Source: Venturia oleaginea (taxonomy: Eukaryota > Ascomycota > Dothideomycetes > Venturiales > Venturiaceae). From it: a stretch of 64,000 bases of DNA. The notes under the pieces are model-generated. The model did no database searches, had not been told where the DNA came from, and saw only the letters and a program-made list of their open reading frames with translations. The translations under genes were made by a program, and so were the position numbers. Within the stretch, counting starts at the first letter, position 1. The number at the start of each line of letters is the position of its first letter. The stretch lies in contig JABMLP010000027.1 in assembly GCA_013176395.1 (NCBI GenBank), positions 496,001-560,000 of the forward strand, written 5' to 3'. Of the stretch, positions 19,745 through 63,541 are shown piece by piece.

Positions 19745-19844
19745 GGTCGCGTGGTGTAGTTGGTTATCACGTCAGTCTAACAACTGCTTGCAATGCAAGT
19801 TAATGGTCCACTGAAGGTCCCCGGATCGAGCCCGGGCGCGATCA
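19745..19844 (+). tRNA. tRNA-Val (anticodon AAC) with an intron
   Basis: The acceptor stem pairs GGTCGCG with CGCGATC (one G-U), the D arm is normal, and the anticodon loop CTAACAC carries AAC at 19779-19781. A 26 nt intron (19783-19808) sits at the canonical 37/38 position. It contains a small CTTGC/GCAAG hairpin and a GTTA that can pair with the anticodon region, as is usual for eukaryotic tRNA introns. The mature length is 74. The T stem CCCGG/CCGGG is complete, but the T loop reads ATCGAGC where nearly all tRNAs have TTCGANC. The internal B box is therefore GGATCGAGCCC rather than the consensus. The gene lies at the left edge of the accessory island. Confidence 0.93.
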
Positions 19845-30509: not shown

Positions 30510-33136
30510 CTATTTGCGAGCCAGCTGTTTGAGTCTTGTGAACCCATTAAACGAGCCTGAAGCTAAGATTTTGCCGTCCGGCAAGAAGGCGACAGATGTG
30601 ACCGAGGACGAATGACCCTCAAGCGTGTGCAGCGTACTGCTCCAGTTTTCTTGTTCTTGCGGCTTGCTTTTGATCCAAGCGTGAATACACTTCTTGAATT
30701 GTTTCCGAACGATGCTCTTCTTAGGGGCAAAGATGGGGGCCCAGTAGAATAGTTGGAGGGGTGCCGTTTCAATCAATCGCTTATAGAGAGCGAAACGCGT
30801 CGTATCATGGACGAACGCATAGAGACCAGGACTTTTATCAGCCTTAGCTTAAATTAGTACGAATCATATATCTAGTATAATGGCGACTTGCTGAAACAGA
30901 AGATTCCAAGGAGGTTATCGCAAGAATACCTTGCCAATTAAGCTAATAGCCTCCAGCCAGTATAAGAAGTAATTTTGGAAAAATTGGTAAACCAGCCCGC
31001 TGTCAGCAAGATCACTCTGGAATAAGACGCTACTTCTATAAGCTTCCTGAAAGTGGCGTTCCCAGTAAACGCAAGGATATTGTAGTGGCGCTAACGGGTC
31101 AGGATCAGGTACCTGTACCGAGTTGATCGAGATTCCTGGTAGGTAACTTGTACATGTCCTTTTCTAGTGATTGAGTCATCGCCTGGAGCGATCTTGAGAA
31201 GACAATACAGTGTGCGCCTCCCTCTCCAGACGGGAAGATACTATCGGATTCGTAGGTGAGCAAATAGTCCTTTGCGGACTGATGGACAAAGTAGATAATT
31301 CCTTCTCGAATGGTGAGGTACGAACCACAAAGACCGATAATCTCCGCTAACCATTTCAGGTTGTAATATATGCTTCTAGATAAGTCGACAAGAGTCGTCA
31401 GCTCTCTTAGTGTGACTGGTCGGTATATAATTGCGATTGACGCAAGTATCCGCTTGCAAAGGTTAGTATCGTCGGAATTGTTAACTTGCTCCATCATTTG
31501 CCCGTAAAGAGGGTTTGAGCCCAGGTGGGAACTGGTTCAGCTTGTTAAGGACGTTCCATGGCTTGACTTTCTGTAGGTGCTCATAGACCAAGGCTACCCA
31601 GAGGAGAATGTTATCCGCGTTTGAGGATAGATGCTGTTGCACGGTCACTCGGGTTTTGTCGTCGTAATTCTTCAGCTTTGCCAGCTGTAGTGTTTTGTGC
31701 TGGATGTAGATACCAACTGCTGTCGAAACGGAATCGGCGTTCAGCTCAAGGCTCAGTTTGACCTTTTGACGGCCCCGTTTAGACCTTCTTCAATGTCGGG
31801 CCAGTTGCGGCTAGAAACGAGCCACTTGACACGACGAGATACCGATGACTGCTTGCCGATAAAGTGCAGTAGTTTCGGCAGGTCTTTTACGCATTCATCG
31901 AGCGCATCGATAACCAAGTAGGTGCTGTTCAAGCTCGGATCTTCCAGAATAGATGTCAAGATCTCAGACAAGGCAACCCATGCATTCTTATCCTCGAATA
32001 GAGTCTTGCCGGCGTGATCGTGCTTCTTCTTTAGATGAGATATAAGCGATTGCGACAAGCAAGTACACTAGACCTCGCAGCACTGCAGTAGCGTTGTTGA
32101 TTTTCGAGTCAGTAGCCTGGCAGAAGAAGCAGGATCGATTTATTGTGACCGTCGACATAGCCAGCTCGCTGATAATTCCGCAAAGCAGCATAGTCTTGCC
32201 CTTACCGGGATCGCCTCTAATCCACAGCAGGCGGCTCTTCTGATCGTCGTGCCATTGTTGGAAGCCGGAGTTCTGGAGAATCCCACGATACGAATCCTCT
32301 AGAAGGCCATCCTTTGTCTCCTCAATACGTTTCTTGTCATCGCGGGGACCGATAAGGCGTAAATCTTGGATACATTTCGCTATCTTATCAATCTTCTCCT
32401 CAATTCGTTCGAACGTCTTCGCCATCCCTTCGCCATAACGAAGACGTATATGAAAATCAAAGATGCCGAGTAATGAGTACGCTTTATCTTCTTCCAACTT
32501 AGTCTGGTGACGATTTGTCCACGAGAATTGTTCTTTGGCGCTGAAGTGAGACAAAGAGTCGCCTCGAAGCGCCGACTCAGTAATGCCTGTTATCTCGTGA
32601 ATTTGTTGCATTAGCAAACTCTTGTCACCAAGTCGCCTGCGTTCGCGGGAGAAGAATTCGACCGAAGCTGGGGCAATTAGCTCTTGGAGCGTCCAGCCAC
32701 GAGTGAACCATCTGCTTTTCTGGAACTCCGATTCCCAGGCGCACGCTGAGTTTTCATCTCGTTTCCTTTTCTTTGTACTTCTCCTCATCTTTGCTGAAAT
32801 ATCAGACAGGGACACGTAGCACCGTGTCGTATTACGGTACCAGCGAAACATGGAATTGAGAGAGTGCGAGAGTTCGGCATAAATTTTCTTGTTAATGCAA
32901 CATGTGTCAATCGAAAAGTATTTCAAGTTGTTTCGTCTAGCTTGTTCACCACAAAACCGGATCTTCTCATAGCCAGGCTTGTTCTTGCCAGTGCCATTCA
33001 CAAGGTCTTCGAATGTGACCTCCTCGGTGTCCTTGCCCCATGTGTGGGAAAGTATCGCATATAGAGGTATTGTATCGTCATTTCTAACGCTGTGAAGCCT
33101 GAGCTCGCCAGAATTGCTGCGCTCTAAAAGACGCAT
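30510..33136 (-). pseudogene. HET-NACHT-WD40 (HNWD-type NLR) relic
   Basis: The gene runs right to left from an ATG at 33136. An N-terminal HET domain is recognisable by IPLYAILSHTW, DTCCINK and RGWTLQELIAP. The NACHT module follows with a P-loop GDPGKGKT at about 32197-32217 and a Walker B motif VIDALDEC near 31910. Proteins of this architecture trigger incompatibility cell death on detecting non-self. Frame breaks occur near 32050, 31760 and 31505, and several stops lie in the region 31105-30780. Past these, the post-NACHT helices and one WD40 unit (LEGHSSSVTSVAFLPDGK) remain, ending at 30510. A working homologue would have a much longer WD40 array. The first 350 codons (HET plus start of NACHT) are still open and could make a HET-only product. 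Confidence 0.88.
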
Positions 33137-33649
33137 TGTGCGCGCGAAGCGGGATGGATGCGAGTAGTGACAATCTGGTGTGGCAAGGCTTGGATGTCAT
33201 AGGCTTAGGAAGAAAAAGGGAGGCGGAGGAAATGAGGACGGCAACTTGAGGATCAGCTAGCAATATTATGTCTATCTCTTGAGGTTAGCGAATCTAGAGA
33301 CGCCGCGAGCGCAGTGAACCATACCGAACAATGATAGAATACTTGCGAGGGACAGGCGTGTGCTGTAGGTGTTGGACAAGATTCACTCAAGAGATGCGCG
33401 AGCAAGCACATACCCCAAATGGTGGTGCAGTGAGGCATCAGGCGTTGATTGAATTGGCTTCAGCGGTAAGGTCAACAGTGGAAGGGTGGTGCTTTTTCAA
33501 TATCATGAGTTATGGGCCGGATAAAATGCATGCTTAGCTTGGCTACAATGACCGTGCGTAGAGAGAGCGCGGGAAGAGTAAAACGGAAGTCGGAGGTGGG
33601 CGCTGTATCTTTCTGTTTTGAGCCACTGACTATTGAGAACGATAAGACG
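33137..33649. other. Upstream region of the HNWD relic
   Basis: About 500 bp, probably the old promoter of the HET-NACHT-WD40 gene and the 3' flank of the Hsp70-like relic. No gene or repeat is visible. Confidence 0.45.
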
Positions 33650-40435: not shown

Positions 40436-42246
40436 ACGTACTCCACCACCCAACCGCTCAAAATTTCTTGGCACGACCATCTCATGTTACGACTCTTTAA
40501 TTTTTTCGCTATCAACAATAGATTCTAAGTCCGTCGTGCTACTATCTGATTCAGAACATATCTCGATATCTTTTTTACAAGTTCGCGCATTATGCCCAGT
40601 TACGCCGCAGTTCCCACAGCGCCGTTGAGTTGGTCGGGCTATTTCTTGATCACCGATACCACGAGCCTTCTTCAATCCCAGAGGCGCTACAGACGCCTCT
40701 GCAGCTACCTGCGCTGCTGCAGTCCCATACTCCATAGTACCACCTTGCTGAATCCGCTTCCTTTTGCGCGATTTTCGCTTCGTTATTACTGCCAATTGCT
40801 CTTCAAGCTCGTGGTTGCGCGCAACGAGTAGAGCGTTTTGGTGAAGCATCAATTCAGCGCCCTTAACAAGCTGGGAGAAGCCAGCCTGCGCAGTAACTGG
40901 TGACCGAGTAAAAGAGTTGCTTACGAGCTTGGATTGGGATCCAAATTCATGAGTATTGCTTGGAGTCTTTGCCTGCCACGGCGTGTCTGGGAGACGGGGT
41001 TCTGGCGGGGTACGTAGCCGTACTTCAAGGCGGTCCAATACCGCCTGCGCGTCGCTAGGGACTAGCCCTATTGCCTTTTGACAGTTCTCTTTTGTAAACA
41101 CGTCTTTGAAGGCAGGGAGAAAGCCTTCCTTGTTGATATGGTACACGAGTCGGCGCGCCAAGTCCCGGATGCGTTGGGAGTACTTGCGCTTCAACGGCGA
41201 GAAGCAGACCACGTCAAGGGGCTGGAGTATATGCGACGAGTGCGATGGCATGCAGAGGGTTAGAATCTTATTTTCGAGGCAGTAGTCCTTAAAATTCTGG
41301 TTGAGATGGCTCTCATGGCCGTCCAAAATGAGTAGCCTGTACCCCCTCACCTGCCGCGCCTTTGTATGCGCGTCAAAATGCTTCAACCACTTAAGACCAA
41401 GCGCGTTATTTGTCCAGCCGTTCTCAGAGACTGAAACCTTCCAATTGCGCGGTATATCTGCCTCCTCGTACCACGCAGAGATGTGAACGCGTCCTTTGTA
41501 GATAATGAAGGGTGGGGTTGCATACCCAGCGACGCAGATACTCTGGATAACCGTAACCCATTCGCGATCGCCCGGCTGAATGAGTTCCGGCCTTGTACGT
41601 CTCTCGGAGGCTGTAACGACCTTCATTGACCCAATAACACCCATCTGGAAGCCAATCTCGTCAAAGTTGTGTGTATCCTCGTCGTGGACGCCGTACTTGG
41701 CTTTGGTATCTGCAACGAGCTTGAACCACGCGCCAATAATCTCTGGATCTTCCTGTAGTATCCTCTGTCTATCCTTGGCTCGGTTGAAGGCCATCTTAAG
41801 CTCATCTGAGCGCGTAACGAACCTCTCAGCCCACTTTTTGCCCACTGGCTCTCCACCGCGTATAGCTAGCAGTTTATCGGCCATATCTGCTACCTCACAA
41901 AGCCGGGGCGCAAATCCTCGCGAATCGAGGTCAAGGATGTATCGGACAAGCGTTTTCTCTTCGGTAAGGGTAAGTTTCCGACCATTTGATGGTGTTTCGA
42001 GGATAAATGGGACTCCTTTAACGCGCTCAGAGAGGATTCGCTGTTTAACGTCGAAGGCACGAGCGGCGGCCCGTTGGCTTCGGAATTGGCCGGCTTGGAG
42101 GGCTTGGAGTGCGAGCTGGATACTCCCTTCGTGCTGGAGTAATAGTGCGTTTCGTTGTTCAGACATAATCACATAAGAGGAATGATAGAAGTCTTGGCAG
42201 ATTTTGAGCGGTTGGGTGGTTTGAGCGGTTGGGTGGTGGAACACGT
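40436..42246 (-). mobile_element. Complete Fot1/pogo-type DNA transposon
   Basis: An 1811 bp element whose ends are near-perfect 27 bp inverted repeats (ACGTACTCCACCACCCAACC at the left, ACGTGTTCCACCACCCAACC at the right, both continuing GCTCAAA), flanked by the TA target duplication typical of the Tc1/mariner-pogo superfamily. The right end carries a second copy of the TTTGAGCGGTTGGGTGG block directly inside the first. It encodes one intact transposase. A relic of the same family sits at 20.46-20.61 kb. Confidence 0.95.
40487..42166 (-). CDS. Fot1/pogo transposase
   Basis: An uninterrupted frame of 559 residues from an ATG at 42166. The frame is open further upstream, but MSEQRNALLLQ is the usual kind of start for this family. 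An N-terminal helix-turn-helix/CENP-B-like DNA-binding region is followed by the DDE catalytic core: the first Asp in NFDEIGFQMG, the second in LILDGHESHLN, and the third acidic position in the HILQPLDVVCF region. The C-terminus has a Lys/Arg-rich segment and a CCHC zinc knuckle (CGNCGVTGHNARTC). All expected motifs are present, so the enzyme could be active. The transposase stop is about 50 bases from the left terminal repeat. Confidence 0.95.
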   Translation of the reverse strand: MSEQRNALLLQHEGSIQLALQALQAGQFRSQRAAARAFDVKQRILSERVKGVPFILETPSNGRKLTLTEEKTLVRYILDLDSRGFAPRLCEVADMADKLLAIRGGEPVGKKWAERFVTRSDELKMAFNRAKDRQRILQEDPEIIGAWFKLVADTKAKYGVHDEDTHNFDEIGFQMGVIGSMKVVTASERRTRPELIQPGDREWVTVIQSICVAGYATPPFIIYKGRVHISAWYEEADIPRNWKVSVSENGWTNNALGLKWLKHFDAHTKARQVRGYRLLILDGHESHLNQNFKDYCLENKILTLCMPSHSSHILQPLDVVCFSPLKRKYSQRIRDLARRLVYHINKEGFLPAFKDVFTKENCQKAIGLVPSDAQAVLDRLEVRLRTPPEPRLPDTPWQAKTPSNTHEFGSQSKLVSNSFTRSPVTAQAGFSQLVKGAELMLHQNALLVARNHELEEQLAVITKRKSRKRKRIQQGGTMEYGTAAAQVAAEASVAPLGLKKARGIGDQEIARPTQRRCGNCGVTGHNARTCKKDIEICSESDSSTTDLESIVDSEKIKES

Positions 42247-42817
42247 TACTATATAGAACATTATGAAAAGCTTTTCGGCAGTATATAAGTATGGTAGCTT
42301 GAAGACTAACTTCCTTTATCCAGCTTGCCAACTCTTCAATGTTTGAAGTGAAGATTTTGTGTCAGGGGTGATCTACTCCCAGTTTTCGTTGCCGGAGCTG
42401 CACACACCTAGACATCAAATCCAAGGCTTCAGCATCACGATCTTGAGATTTCCACGTAAAGGCAAGATTGTACATGCTAGTCAGCGTGTTTGGATGCTCT
42501 ACGCCATGGATCCTCTTTCTTGTCTCCGCCACTTGCACCTCCAGCTCTTCGACCTCCGTCCATCGGCCTTGACTCCAAAATGTCAACGCCAGGTTGGCCA
42601 TACTCGTGACCGTGTCAGGGTGCTCTGGCCCAAGCACCTTCTCGCATCCTTTCAGGGCTCGGCGGGTGCATCGCTTCCGCCTCTTCATACTTTCCCAGCT
42701 TCTCCAACACCGACCCAAGCTGGCTCACGCTCGTGAGCGTGTCAGGGTGCTCTGGCCCAAGCACCTTCTCGCATCCTTTCAGGGCTCGGCGGTGCATCGC
42801 TTCCGCCTCTTCATACT

Positions 42818-46011: not shown

Positions 46012-46346
46012 TTGAAATAAGGAACATGGAACACACAAGACTTGAAGGCATATATTAGATTTTATACGGAGGTAGGTAGACCCCATGAAAAATGGTGCTG
46101 CCAGATCGCAACACCGCCATCAGCCAGCACAGCTCGCATTTGGCGAAGCCCGTGGTTCGCAGCCTGTGGTGTGCTCAGCTGCGCAGTGCTCACTGAGCAC
46201 ATGCAGAAGCGCTCTTCAATCTTATTGGAGCAATTATCGCTGGAATGCGGTTCAAAATCCATCAACGAGCATAAGTGCAGAGAAATTCAAAAAATTCAAA
46301 CAAATCCAAAAATTTACACAAAAACCAAGCTTAGAAGAAGCTCGAA

Positions 46347-48273
46347 ATGCGTCTCCTCAACACTAAGACGCTGGCGACCGAATGGTTCGGACTCACCCCC
46401 GAAATACGCCATTCTCTCTCATACTTGGGTCGATGACGAGGTCAATCTAATCAAATTAGGTTCGCAGTCCGGTCAGAAGCACGACGAAGGATATCAGAAG
46501 GTTTTAGGCGCAGCCTCCCAGACGGCTAGAGATGGCTTGTCCCATTTCGGGGTCGCCACCTGTTGCATTGACAGGACGAATAATGCTGAGGTCACGGAGG
46601 CCGTCATCTCAATGTACAGATGGTACCGAGCTGCGACAGTTTGCTATGCATACCTGTCAGACGTGAATCTCGCAGAGCCAAGAAACCCGTTGACAGATGA
46701 CAGCTGGGTCCACAAGTTCAGACGAAGTAAATGGTTCTTGCGAGGATGGACACTTCAAGAGCTTATTGCTCCAGGCGAAGTCATTTTTTTGACAGCCAGT
46801 GTGAAATACTGGGAAGAAGAGGTTATCTGGCAGACTCGATCTCCGAAATCACGGACATCCAGTCAAAGTACTCCGAGACGCGACGGGACGGACTCGGATA
46901 CCAGCAGTGTAACATCCTTCAATTCTAGCGACGTCGAGGATGAGTCTCTGCTTGATATGCTGGTGGATGCTCTTGTGAGATCATTACGGAACGCGCATTC
47001 ACCCCAGCTTCGCTTCTCAGCTTGACAGACAGCGTTTTTCACAACCATCATGAAGATTGGGTTTCTAAGACTGGGAGCGTGAATACAGTTTACGCCAACG
47101 CGCTCCAGGCGGCATCGGGCAGAGGGCATCCGTCTGTGGTCGAGCAGCAGCTGGGAAAGAGCAGCGACGTCAAGGTGCAAGAAAGATTCTGCGGCAACGG
47201 CCCCAGGTGATGGATATCTTTAAGAGGGTGCTTTGCGAGGAGCATCCTCCCGCGCTAACTAGCAAGGGCGCCGACCTCATCGTACATGGAGGAGTCTATG
47301 CCAACGCGCTCCAGGTGGCTTCGCACAGAGGGCACGCGGCGATCGTCGAGTTGCCGTTAAGCAATGGCGCCGACATCAACTCGCAAGGTAGAGGGGTCTA
47401 TGCCAACGCGCTCCAGGCCGCCTTAGCGAGAGAACACGAGAAGGTGGTTGAGCAGCTGCTAGCGAAGGGAGTCGACGTCAACGCGCAGGGCGGAGAGTAC
47501 GGTAGCGCGCTCCAGGCGGCCTGTAGTCAAGGGCGGTGAAAGGAGGCAGAAGAGCAAGTGATAGAAATAAGCAAAAGGGTACTTGGCGACGAGCATCCTT
47601 ACACGCTGACCAGCATGTCCAGTCTAGCGTTAAGGTACTCTTCGCAAGGACTATTGGAGAAGGCTGAAGAGCTACAAGTCAAATTGTGTGAGACTCACAG
47701 TAGGGTTATAGGTAACGAACATCCTGGTCCACTGATCAGCTTGGCCAACCTAGCGTCGATGTACAGTAGTCAAGGGCGGTGGAAGGAGCCGGAAGTACTG
47801 CAGGTGCAAGTGATGGAGACGAGTTTGAGGGTACTTGGCGCAGAGCATCCAGACACGCTGACCAGTATGGCCAACCTGCGTCAACGTACAGGAATCAAGG
47901 CCGATGGAAGGAGACTGAAGAGCTGGAGGTGCAAGTGATGGAGACCAGAAAGAGGGTGCTTGGCGCAGAGCATCCTTCTATGCTGACTAGCATGGCTAAC
48001 CTGGCATCGACGTACTGGAATCAAGGCCGATGGAAGGAGGCTGAAGAGCTGGAGTTGCAAGTGATGGAGACGAGTCTGAGGGTGCTTGGCGCAGAGCATC
48101 CAGACACGCTGACCAGCATGAACAATCGTGGAAAGCTCAAGGTCGTGATACGAAGGCTATGGAATTTACTATCTGAGTGTGTACAGCTTCTGGAACGAAA
48201 ATTAGGACCGGATTACCCCCATACAAAATCTTCATTTCAAACACTGAAGAATTGGCAAGACAAGACGACGTAG
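46347..48273 (+). pseudogene. HET domain relic with interleaved ankyrin and TPR repeats
   Basis: An ATG at 46347 starts MRLLNTKTL, the usual beginning of HET proteins. The frame breaks near 46380 and the HET core continues in another frame (KYAILSHTW, CCIDRTNN, RGWTLQELIAPGEV). At the T run near 46786 it shifts again, after which GRRGYLADSISEITDI completes the domain. Downstream is an Asp/Ser-rich linker, then an ankyrin unit (VYANALQAASGRGHPSVVEQ) and a piece of TPR (DIFKRVLCEEHPPALTS). This TPR piece is fused in frame to three more ankyrin units (for example YANALQVASHRGHAAIVE). After a TGA at 47537-47539 the same frame continues as four TPR units (VLGAEHPDTLTSMANLAS type), with a last frame change near 47875. 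It ends at 48273 after the family tail TLKNWQDK. With at least four breaks it cannot make a full protein. Confidence 0.82.
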
Positions 48274-61226: not shown

Positions 61227-61360
61227 GGCAATGTGGCGGAGTGGTTATCGCGATAGACTAGAAATCTATTTCCTTCGGGAGCACAGGTACTGTCGAAGTG
61301 GACTGAATCAGTAGAGACTGGTACTAATAACGATATCAGGTTCGAGTCCTGTCATTGTCG
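61227..61360 (+). tRNA. tRNA-Ser (anticodon AGA) interrupted by a GT-AG insert in the T arm
   Basis: The acceptor stem pairs GGCAATG with CATTGTC, the A box reads TGGCGGAGTGG, and the anticodon stem ATAGA/TCTAT encloses CTAGAAA with AGA. The variable arm is TCC-TTCG-GGA, as expected for a serine tRNA. After the T-stem half ACAG, a 53 nt segment (61287-61339) intervenes, beginning GTACTG and ending ATATCAG, with CTAAT eleven bases before the end. Removing it leaves ACAGG-TTCGAGT-CCTGT, a perfect T arm, and a mature length of 81. There is no insert at the usual 37/38 position. The B box GGTTCGAGTCC is intact in the gene because the insert's last G substitutes. Whether the transcript is processed is unknown. 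It could also be a tRNA pseudogene carrying a small insertion. Confidence 0.8.
61287..61339 (+). other. Non-canonical intron-like insert in tRNA-Ser
   Basis: The 53 nt segment has GT...AG ends, a CTAAT branch-like motif and a CAG|G insertion context, which is the proto-splice-site consensus. Its length lies within the range of the spliceosomal introns in this window (43-70 bp). The four bases CAGG occur on both sides, so its exact edges are ambiguous by up to four bases. Confidence 0.65.
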
Positions 61361-61364
61361 TTTT
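61361..61364 (+). terminator. RNA polymerase III terminator of tRNA-Ser
   Basis: Four T residues follow the discriminator base directly. Confidence 0.7.
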
Positions 61365-61598
61365 CTTTGCGTGCTTTTTTACTATTTGATAAAGGTAGAA
61401 AAAAGAGGTAGTACGCTGTAATTACCTTTTGCTTTTTAATTGGTGGCGACTCTGCTTTCTTTCTTTCTTCTGTGGAACGATTGCTTGGAAGGCTCTTCTT
61501 CTCAGTGAGGGATTGGGATGAGGATGTATGGAAGAGGTAAATTGAATGATGTATGCGAAGGTCGAAACCTTCGATTCGAGATAGTACTCGCTATACTT

Positions 61599-63541
61599 CT
61601 ATGTTTCTTTCGTATGATTACCGTTAATTTGGACGACTTCATCTTCAGGCGAACTGAGCGAGAAGGAACTGGTCTGATTGTTGACAATGGCCGCGCGCTC
61701 GTTTTGTCTACAGGGTGGTTAGTCGAGCGGCTCAACGGCGAAATACCAAGGCCGTACCTTTGCAGGTCCTGCTTCTTATGCAGATACTTGATTACAAATG
61801 TGGTGACGATAAGAAGAACCGAGAGACAAGTGACAGTGATATAGCCTGTAAAGGATTAGCGAAACGACACAAAAATAAAAAAGTGACAAAATCTCACCTT
61901 TGCGGTACTCAGGCGCATCAACTTGTTGCCACACAATAAGTGGCAGCCATGCTTGCAACACATAAGACATCTCGTTCATAGTGGCCACAACGATAGCTCG
62001 CTCCTCATTATCTTCGGAGCAAAGTTCGTGGGCCCATGCAAAACACAGACCACTGAGACCACCTCCACAGCCAGCGAGAATGAAACACGCCCATTTCCAT
62101 CGTCTTGAAATGTCCCAGATAGCAAGGCTGACATACACAATGATGTTCGCGACACCGCCAAACACGATCGCAGGCCACCGGACACCTTTGAAAACGGAAT
62201 CGGAGGTCCAAGCATAGATTAACGTTGTGACGACCTGCACTCCGGAAGTTGCTGATGGGATGTTGTTGATCTGGTCGACTGAGTATTTGGGGTCGGTTGA
62301 AGCCTTGAGATATTGTTGGAAAACCGGTTGCGACAGTGCGCCTCCGTTGTTGAAGCAAATATACAACAGGGTGAGGAGATAGATCCGCCAGGAGATGAGA
62401 ATCTTCTTGACCTTGGCCTTTGTGTAGGGCTCTCTATTTTTACGACCTTCCAATTCCATGCGCTTCTTTCCATAGGCGATGTCTTCCTTTGTAAGATAGA
62501 AGGCCTTGGATATTTCGGGAACGTCGGGAAGCATGAAATATCCAGCAATGGCGATCGGGAGGCTAATGATTCCATCCACGATGAACAACCATTGCCAGCC
62601 TTTGAGACCTCCTTTCCCACCTAGATGATACACACCGGCCATGAGGTAGCCAGAGAACATGGATCCCAGAGCACTACTTGTATGGAAGATACAGGAGCGT
62701 TTGGCCAATTCGTCCTTTCGATACCATGACCCAATGATGTATTGCATCCCAGGATAGAATGTGCTCTCGGCAAGGCCAATGAAGAACCTGAGCACGTAAA
62801 TCTGTGTAGCTGAGTTCGATTTACTCAAGATGAACGTCAAGACTGCCCATATAACCTCGGCAGTAGGAATGATGTAGCGAGGCCTGTATTTGGTGAGGAG
62901 GATATTGCTTGGAATCTCTCCAATAACGTAGCCCACTTTGGAAAGATGTCAGCACAGTACAAATATTTAGATCTCAGGGCTCCTACCAGTCCAGCATGTC
63001 TGCATGTAATTAAGCTGGTTCTGATATAGCTCAAGATCCTCCTTCCTGATGACCATGTCAGTTACGTCGATTCGTATAGTTGGAACCGATTATCAATCAA
63101 CTCACATTCCAGAGACAAAAGCATTGTTGATGTTGATTTGGTCCAGATATTTAATGAAGTAGCCAAGAGACGCGTATGTCAGGATTGCCGCGTCCAATTT
63201 AAAAAGAAACTTTCGCTCCTCGGGACTCTTGTCAAATGTATCCCATATGTAGGAGAACTATATCTATACATGTTAATCGATCATGCCAAAGCTAGTGTAC
63301 GACTGTGGAATTAAACAGAATATTCTGAGCTACAGGGTGAAAACTGGGCGAAATATCGAGAACGCTTTCGGACTGCATGTTCGCTGCCGCCAGGGTTTGG
63401 TGAGCACGCGCAACAAGAATTGGCTATCTTTTCTCATTGAGGCTACAGGAATATGACAGATAGAAAGTTCCATACCCATTGTTTCTTCGCTTCTTTGTGT
63501 ATCACAGCATCAGCTTTTTGTGAAGGTATATCGTCTGACAT
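61599..63541 (-). CDS. MFS transporter of the Dal5/allantoate permease (anion:cation symporter) family
   Basis: Six exons (63541-63476, 63257-63106, 63045-62987, 62935-61898, 61845-61758, 61707-61599) give 503 residues. Introns are 50-60 bp except the first, which is 218 bp. Family landmarks are clear: SYIWDTFDKSPEERKFLFKLD at the first TM, [23 protein letters not shown], then [22 protein letters not shown] and RFFIGLAESTFYPGMQYIIGSWY. Twelve membrane helices are present. Substrates in this family include allantoate, nicotinate, pantothenate and biotin precursors; the sequence does not settle which. The C-terminal tail is short and polar (EDEVVQINGNHTKET). The long first intron could hide a small exon, since a 30-codon coding-like stretch lies within it. 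Confidence 0.9.

Follow-up and report, generated by a model that had tools for sequence, protein, structure and literature searches.

Introns with spliceosomal signals outside the anticodon loop of tRNA genes in Venturia oleaginea

In its available part, a 2026 review (PMC13149111) presents nuclear tRNA splicing as a process independent of the spliceosome. The window considered here, which is the whole stretch of 64,000 nucleotides of Venturia oleaginea DNA that was analyzed, carries a tRNA-Ser(AGA) gene that is interrupted shortly before its T loop by an insert beginning with GT and ending with AG, and it raises the question of how, or whether, such a gene gives rise to a tRNA. The first-pass annotation had left two answers standing: either a Pol III gene has acquired a spliceosomal intron, or a small element has inserted and the gene is dead. 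In this study, we have found tRNA genes that look functional and carry spliceosomal introns at several positions, an unusual genomic finding that is well supported. Very probably these are working tRNA genes with U2-type spliceosomal introns, some of which would also need the tRNA endonuclease, splicing itself being deduced here from genomic sequence; the data suggest that the spliceosome, beyond the usual tRNA-cutting enzyme, may be needed for some of the tRNAs of this fungus.

The interrupted tRNA-Ser(AGA) gene

At the gathering threshold, Rfam gave a single tRNA match in the window (RF00005; 61227-61360, plus strand; 44.2 bits), with a large insertion. The tRNA was the only Rfam gathering match there, and no group I or group II self-splicing core was detected; 53 nt is too short for the catalytic core of either group. 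The gene is laid out as follows.

61227..61286, plus strand: exon 1 of tRNA-Ser(AGA), comprising the acceptor 5' strand, D arm, anticodon arm, variable arm and T-stem bases 1-4 (RF00005)
61234..61244, plus strand: A box, TGGCGGAGTGG, intact, assigned by its consensus
61260..61262, plus strand: anticodon AGA, called by ARAGORN on the spliced sequence, with coordinates counted by hand
61287..61339, plus strand: intron of 53 nt, GTACTG...TATCAG (GTACTG...TACTAATAACGATATCAG), between tRNA positions 52 and 53
61324..61328, plus strand: branch-site-like CTAAT, inside TACTAAT, with 11 intron bases 3' of the motif
61339..61349, plus strand: B box, GGTTCGAGTCC, likewise assigned by its consensus, its first G coming from the AG end of the intron
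61340..61360, plus strand: exon 2 of tRNA-Ser(AGA), comprising the last T-stem base, T loop, 3' T stem, acceptor 3' strand and discriminator G
61361..61380, plus strand: Pol III-type terminator, T4 at 61361-61364 and T6 at 61375-61380, read from the sequence

Without the 53 nt, the gene is identical at 81 of 81 positions to an intronless tRNA-Ser(AGA) gene at C59:1044521-1044601, and exon 1 matches positions 1-60 of L022, an intronless gene, without a difference. Over the 48 nt on the 5' side and the 45 nt on the 3' side, by contrast, the window gene and the C59 gene resemble each other about as much as shuffled sequences do. The intron interrupts the T stem one base 5' of the T loop, and its boundary can slide within CAGGT, a 5-nt direct repeat common to both ends. 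The first-pass description of a tRNA-Ser(AGA) split by 53 nt just before the T loop is thus borne out by the Rfam match with its insertion and by the identity of the closed-up gene to its paralog; the GT start, the AG end, the CTAAT placed 11 nt from that end and the B box kept through the last G of the insert were likewise found as described. Since the closed-up gene matches its paralog throughout and 11 other tRNA genes contain similar GT-AG inserts (see below), it is unreasonable to attribute the insert to chance.

ARAGORN in bacterial mode called no tRNA gene in the window. A tRNA-Val(AAC) gene with an ordinary 26-nt anticodon-loop intron, at 19745-19844 on the plus strand, was missed both in that mode and by the Rfam gathering search.

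The genome also has two Ser(AGA) genes that lack the intron, L022 and L036; therefore, the window copy alone need not be essential. Intact copies elsewhere had been put forward in the first-pass annotation as one sign among several of a pseudogene, and for this single gene that sign is present: given its two intronless paralogs, the window copy, taken alone, could be dead. In its general form, this explanation holds that the interrupted copies are dead tRNA genes, hit by short elements or introns that are never removed, and that intact paralogs do the work. It draws on the intronless copies that are known for Ser(AGA), Ser(GCT), Gly(UCC) and Leu(UAG), and it has to be weighed against the other split genes of the genome.

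Split tRNA genes and their intron signals

The assembly comprises 46 Mb in 61 contigs. Rfam scored 63 of 1697 first-look tRNA candidates and returned 58 matches, which makes for an incomplete census; 40 of these matches were sorted as nuclear, and 14 on contig C38, 2 on contig C58 and the pair L055/L056 were set aside as organellar or unclear. Five of the 40 nuclear matches have a T-arm GT-AG insert. Further split genes came from a DNA similarity search and from gapless patterns requiring AG before the T loop, which gave 94 places; 82 were inspected and 12 were already-known genes or lay on contig C38. The three pattern places inspected last gave no tRNA match. Altogether, 14 GT-AG introns outside the anticodon loop were found in 12 of the 52 nuclear tRNA genes examined (Ser, Arg, Gly and Leu), a share that is no genome-wide estimate because the search patterns favor T-arm introns. 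The 52 genes are the 40 Rfam matches together with L059, L070, L072, L075, L076, L085, L086, L087, L121, L129, L150 and the gene at window position 19745. The split genes are listed here with the means by which each was found.

Ser(AGA), window gene, plus strand: T stem, 52/53; Rfam
Ser(AGA), L057: T-arm GT-AG insert; Rfam
Ser(GCT), L054: T-arm GT-AG insert; Rfam
Gly(CCC), L058: T-arm GT-AG insert and an ordinary anticodon-loop intron; Rfam
Arg(UCU), L051: T arm, 53/54; Rfam
Arg(UCU), L085: split at the same place as L051; DNA similarity search
Ser(AGA), L086: GT-AG insert before the T loop; DNA similarity search
Ser(UGA), L087: T loop, 57/58, and an ordinary anticodon-loop intron; DNA similarity search
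Ser(GCT), L072: T-arm intron and a second intron in the anticodon stem, 29/30; AG-before-T-loop pattern
Ser(GCT), L076: T-arm intron and a second intron in the anticodon stem, 29/30; AG-before-T-loop pattern
Leu(UAG), L129: T-arm intron and an ordinary anticodon-loop intron; AG-before-T-loop pattern
Gly(UCC), L075: D-loop intron, about 20/21, and an ordinary anticodon-loop intron; by way of the pattern places

By tRNA numbering done by hand, the introns lie in the T stem at 52/53 (Ser, Gly and Leu) or at 53/54 (Arg), in the T loop at 57/58, in the anticodon stem at 29/30 and in the D loop at about 20/21. Requiring AG before the T loop means that T-arm introns are over-represented, those of L072, L076 and L129 having been found in that way; the anticodon-stem introns of L072 and L076 and the D-loop intron of L075 lay elsewhere in pattern-found genes. 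L106 was left out as a further split tRNA, since it has one T-stem mismatch, its isotype is not clear and ARAGORN does not recognize it. Just downstream of the Leu(UAG) gene, on the minus strand of L129 (57-126), there is a second, shortened tRNA copy with a GTAAGC...ATCAG insert before the T loop.

All 14 inserts start with GT and end with AG, a count that has to be read with the knowledge that AG was in the search pattern for the T-arm introns of L072, L076 and L129 and that the splice script demanded both GT and AG. A chance probability of 10^-27 for such a result assumes independence and ignores the AG-based selection; we do not rely on it. The 5' ends read GTAAG, GTACG, GTATG or GTGAG in 12 of the 14 inserts, with GTACT in the window gene and GTTTG in the anticodon-stem intron of L072. 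Every insert contains a branch-like motif (CTAAT, CTAAC, CTGAC or TTAAT), the A of which stands 9-18 nt from the 3' end, and the inserts measure 49-57 nt, apart from one of 89 nt.

The protein-coding gene next to the window tRNA provides mRNA introns for comparison.

61605..63532, minus strand: MFS transporter gene adjoining the tRNA gene; 84% identical to Venturia inaequalis BLS_005635
61708-61757, 61846-61897, 62936-62986 and 63046-63105, minus strand: mRNA introns of the MFS gene, 50-60 nt, from protein homology

Five mRNA introns, in this gene and in a GEN1-like gene, were placed by homology to Venturia proteins, with their exact ends set by eye at GT and AG; they are 50-60 nt long, contain CTGAC, CTAAT or CTAAC and end in CAG, AAG or TAG. 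The 53-nt insert thus has the size of the mRNA introns of this genome, as had been proposed. Protein homology replaced an ab initio collection of mRNA introns, of which the open-frame list was noisy and the codon-bias version gave one candidate. The proteins coded on either side of the window tRNA are 84-85% identical to V. inaequalis BLS_005634 and BLS_005635, which have consecutive tags, and one protein further away is 83% identical to its V. nashicola counterpart. Elsewhere in the window, at 31988-33196 (minus strand), 46021-47025 (plus strand) and 40487-42361 (minus strand), there are HET/NACHT-type genes and a DDE_1 transposase gene.

Ordinary eukaryotic nuclear tRNA introns, at 37/38, likewise interrupt nuclear tRNA genes, and they occur together with the present introns in 4 of the 12 split genes (L058, L075, L087 and L129); however, they differ from them in position, length, terminal dinucleotides and branch motif. 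No GT-AG insert lies at the endonuclease-type position 37/38. Conversely, a GT-AG reading was found in none of the 23 ordinary anticodon-loop introns compared, and a branch-like motif in 4 of them; the ends of these 23 were set by eye, and the introns of L058, L042, L150 and window position 19745 lie outside the list.

A different enzyme could in principle be responsible: the inserts might be ectopic archaeal-type introns, cut by the tRNA splicing endonuclease, as in Cyanidioschyzon merolae or archaea. A 2014 review of tRNA gene diversity, the available part of which contains no word beginning with "spliceosom" (PMC4033280), lists tRNA genes with multiple introns in a red alga and in archaea, and the C. 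merolae and archaeal genes resemble ours in having more than one intron per gene at unusual positions. Unlike those introns, which form a bulge-helix-bulge, the inserts described here have none by the test made and show spliceosomal signals instead. The first-pass annotation had named a bulge-helix-bulge as the structure that would speak for the endonuclease, and it was looked for in all 14 inserts with a simple pairing test, over all the boundary slides that direct repeats allow: the four-base-pair central helix formed in none of them, and the best pairing was either 3 of 4 central with 0-2 of 6 flanking pairs or 1 of 4 central with 5 flanking pairs. Moreover, GT, branch motif and AG would not be expected in such introns, and the anticodon-loop introns of this fungus itself have no GT-AG reading among those compared. 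We therefore give cutting by the endonuclease at these sites almost no credence. Depletion of Pol III terminators within the introns was not significant (TTTT in 1 of 14 introns against a shuffle mean of 2.9; P 0.15).

Predicted spliced products and the possible need for splicing

Removal of the introns restores recognizable tRNAs. ARAGORN called a tRNA with the expected anticodon in all 12 spliced sequences; from the unspliced sequences it called 3 of 12 and gave the right identity in one, an example of how a tRNA gene finder is misled by such introns.

Comparison of paralogs sets conserved exons against drifted introns. The Ser(GCT) genes L072 and L076, with three exons each, are identical at 81 of 81 spliced positions, yet their T-arm introns are 57% and their anticodon-stem introns 55% identical, against a shuffled mean of 49%, and their flanks are no more alike than shuffled sequence. 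Between L054 and either of these two genes, the exons agree at 77 of 81 positions and the intron is 59% identical; the corresponding figures are 73 of 81 and 56% for the window gene and L057, and 71 of 72 and 57% for the Arg(UCU) genes L051 and L085. The Gly(UCC) gene L075, with a D-loop GT-AG intron, and L070, without it, have exons identical at 72 of 72 positions. Three of the five T-arm intron comparisons were slightly above the 97.5th percentile of the shuffles, splice signals included, and this slight excess likeness of paralogous introns may come from the common splice signals or from remaining kinship. Conserved exons beside drifted introns and flanks are the pattern expected from selection on the spliced product, although exon identity among paralogs could come in part from gene conversion limited to exons.

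These comparisons bear directly on the proposal that the interrupted genes are dead. Dead genes would not be expected to stay alike at 73-81 of 81 or 71 of 72 exon positions while introns and flanks fall to near-shuffled similarity, nor to keep GT, a branch-like motif and AG in all 14 inserts, and the searches made brought up no unsplit Arg(UCU) gene that could do the work. Two genes do show changes that are unusual for a working tRNA, namely, stem mismatches in L086 and A rather than U at position 33 in L085; these two look partly degenerate and may be decaying. On balance, we regard death of the interrupted genes as a whole as improbable; for the window gene itself, which has intronless paralogs, only the analogy to the other split genes speaks against that explanation. 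The choice that the first-pass annotation had left thus falls in favor of the spliceosomal intron, on the strength of the 11 additional genes, the recognizable tRNAs obtained from all 12 genes on intron removal, the contrast between exons and introns, and the split in both of the Arg(UCU) genes found.

The case of tRNA-Arg(UCU) is the most telling with regard to need. An insert-free query found two Arg(UCU) genes, L051 and L085, both split at the same place; this DNA search is insensitive to diverged genes, as it did not list two Arg(CCT) genes, which leaves room for a diverged intronless Arg(UCU) gene. The anticodon-loop word GACTTCTAATC occurs at 12 places genome-wide, one of which is L051, and no tRNA was found at the other 11, either by eye or with two models (E 0.1). 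AGA makes up 15 of the 1254 codons in two reading frames of the window. If there is no further Arg(UCU) gene, AGA would be unreadable unless the intron is removed. Judging from these sequences, it is likely that spliceosomal tRNA maturation is essential in this fungus, in that it would serve every tRNA-Arg(UCU) gene and several Ser, Gly and Leu genes, that the reading of AGA would depend on it and that some precursors would pass through both splicing systems.

If the genes are working genes with spliceosomal introns, their expression can be envisioned as follows. Pol III would transcribe the window gene from its A and B boxes, which appear to remain usable despite the introns. Where an intron precedes the T loop, its terminal AG would restore GGTTCGA or GTTCGA (GGTTCAA in L086); in L087, the GTAC at the start of the intron would stand in for the end of the B box, with one mismatch (GTTCGGTAC). 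T-arm introns would be tolerated because the AG end of the intron regenerates the B box. The spliceosome would recognize GTACTG, CTAAT and CAG and the intron would leave as a lariat; the T stem would then fold to give a normal tRNA-Ser(AGA), which we infer is used in translation. For Gly-CCC, Gly-UCC, Ser-UGA and Leu-UAG, both the spliceosome and the tRNA splicing endonuclease would be needed.

U6 genes, intron origin and wider bearing

Introns of the same appearance occur in U6 snRNA genes. The genome has seven U6 matches, four of them of normal length, and two matches carry inserts at two different U6 sites.

C12:1178091-1178250: U6 match (L161) with a 52-nt GTAAGT...CTAAC...AACAG insert after CAGAGAA
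C36:59841-60006: U6 match (L162) with a 58-nt GTAAGT...CTAAC...CACAG insert after GCATG

In L161, the first base of the ACAGAGA box is changed; therefore, L161 may not be a working U6 gene. Spliceosomal introns occur in the U6 genes of other fungi, among them fission yeast and Rhodosporidium, and provide a precedent for the removal of an intron from a Pol III transcript. There as here, a spliceosomal intron interrupts a short structural-RNA gene of the Pol III type; the present hosts differ in being tRNA genes with internal promoters, in covering four amino-acid types and in being split at several positions, including the B-box region. We postulate that a set of U2-type introns entered both tRNA and U6 snRNA genes in this fungus.

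A further U6 match, L163 (C2:1122156-1122218 and upstream), was kept out of the U6 intron count as degenerate. It consists of the 3' half of U6, preceded by a 49-nt insert (GTCAGA...CCTAG) that shares its site with the insert of L161; farther upstream there may be a second insert, which lacks a terminal AG.

The origin of these introns is a separate matter. They may have spread as DNA, in the form of introner-like mobile elements that can be spliced out, or each may have arisen in a gain of its own, for instance through reverse splicing into U6 and tRNA; an introner origin, which would be compatible with working tRNA genes that carry spliceosomal introns, seems to us possible but rather doubtful. 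In its favor, introner-like elements drive intron gain in other Dothideomycetes (PMC4457414, as far as the available part of that paper goes), which gives a likeness to our case in both the short spliceosomal introns gained and the fungal class, and the window intron is flanked by the 5-nt direct repeat. However, the available part of the same paper treats genes at large and nowhere uses the word tRNA, and when the genome was searched with the window intron, the intron itself was the sole match and no second copy was found, although the search skips very common words and so leaves room for an abundant introner family. Paralogous introns are only 55-59% identical, the closest pair among all 14 introns reaches 68% in a lenient alignment without a control, and the direct repeats are irregular, ranging from 0 to 5 nt.

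Among the matches listed in the open-access literature, there was no earlier report of spliceosomal introns in tRNA genes. If our reading is true, the division between nuclear tRNA splicing and the spliceosome is broken, and intron gain reaches beyond protein-coding or Pol II genes. The split genes would also constitute a natural test of whether the spliceosome can act on stably folded Pol III precursors. Because tRNA and U6 exons are highly conserved, insertions into them could be dated and their source could be traced, which bears on the study of intron gain.

Some of the other tRNA matches in the assembly are noted here in their own right. L043 (C13:712867-712938) has a CAT anticodon and initiator-like features and differs widely from four identical initiator copies. 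L055 (C19:646319-646392) and L056 (C60:820814-820887) are identical tRNA-Ile(GAT)-like matches, with the anticodon read by eye; their neighboring bases are identical on both contigs, and one of the two lies near a contig end. Contig C58, of 18.9 kb, carries the identical tRNA matches L027 and L028 in inverted orientation near 10 kb and 17 kb, and it is perhaps an organellar or plasmid-like molecule.
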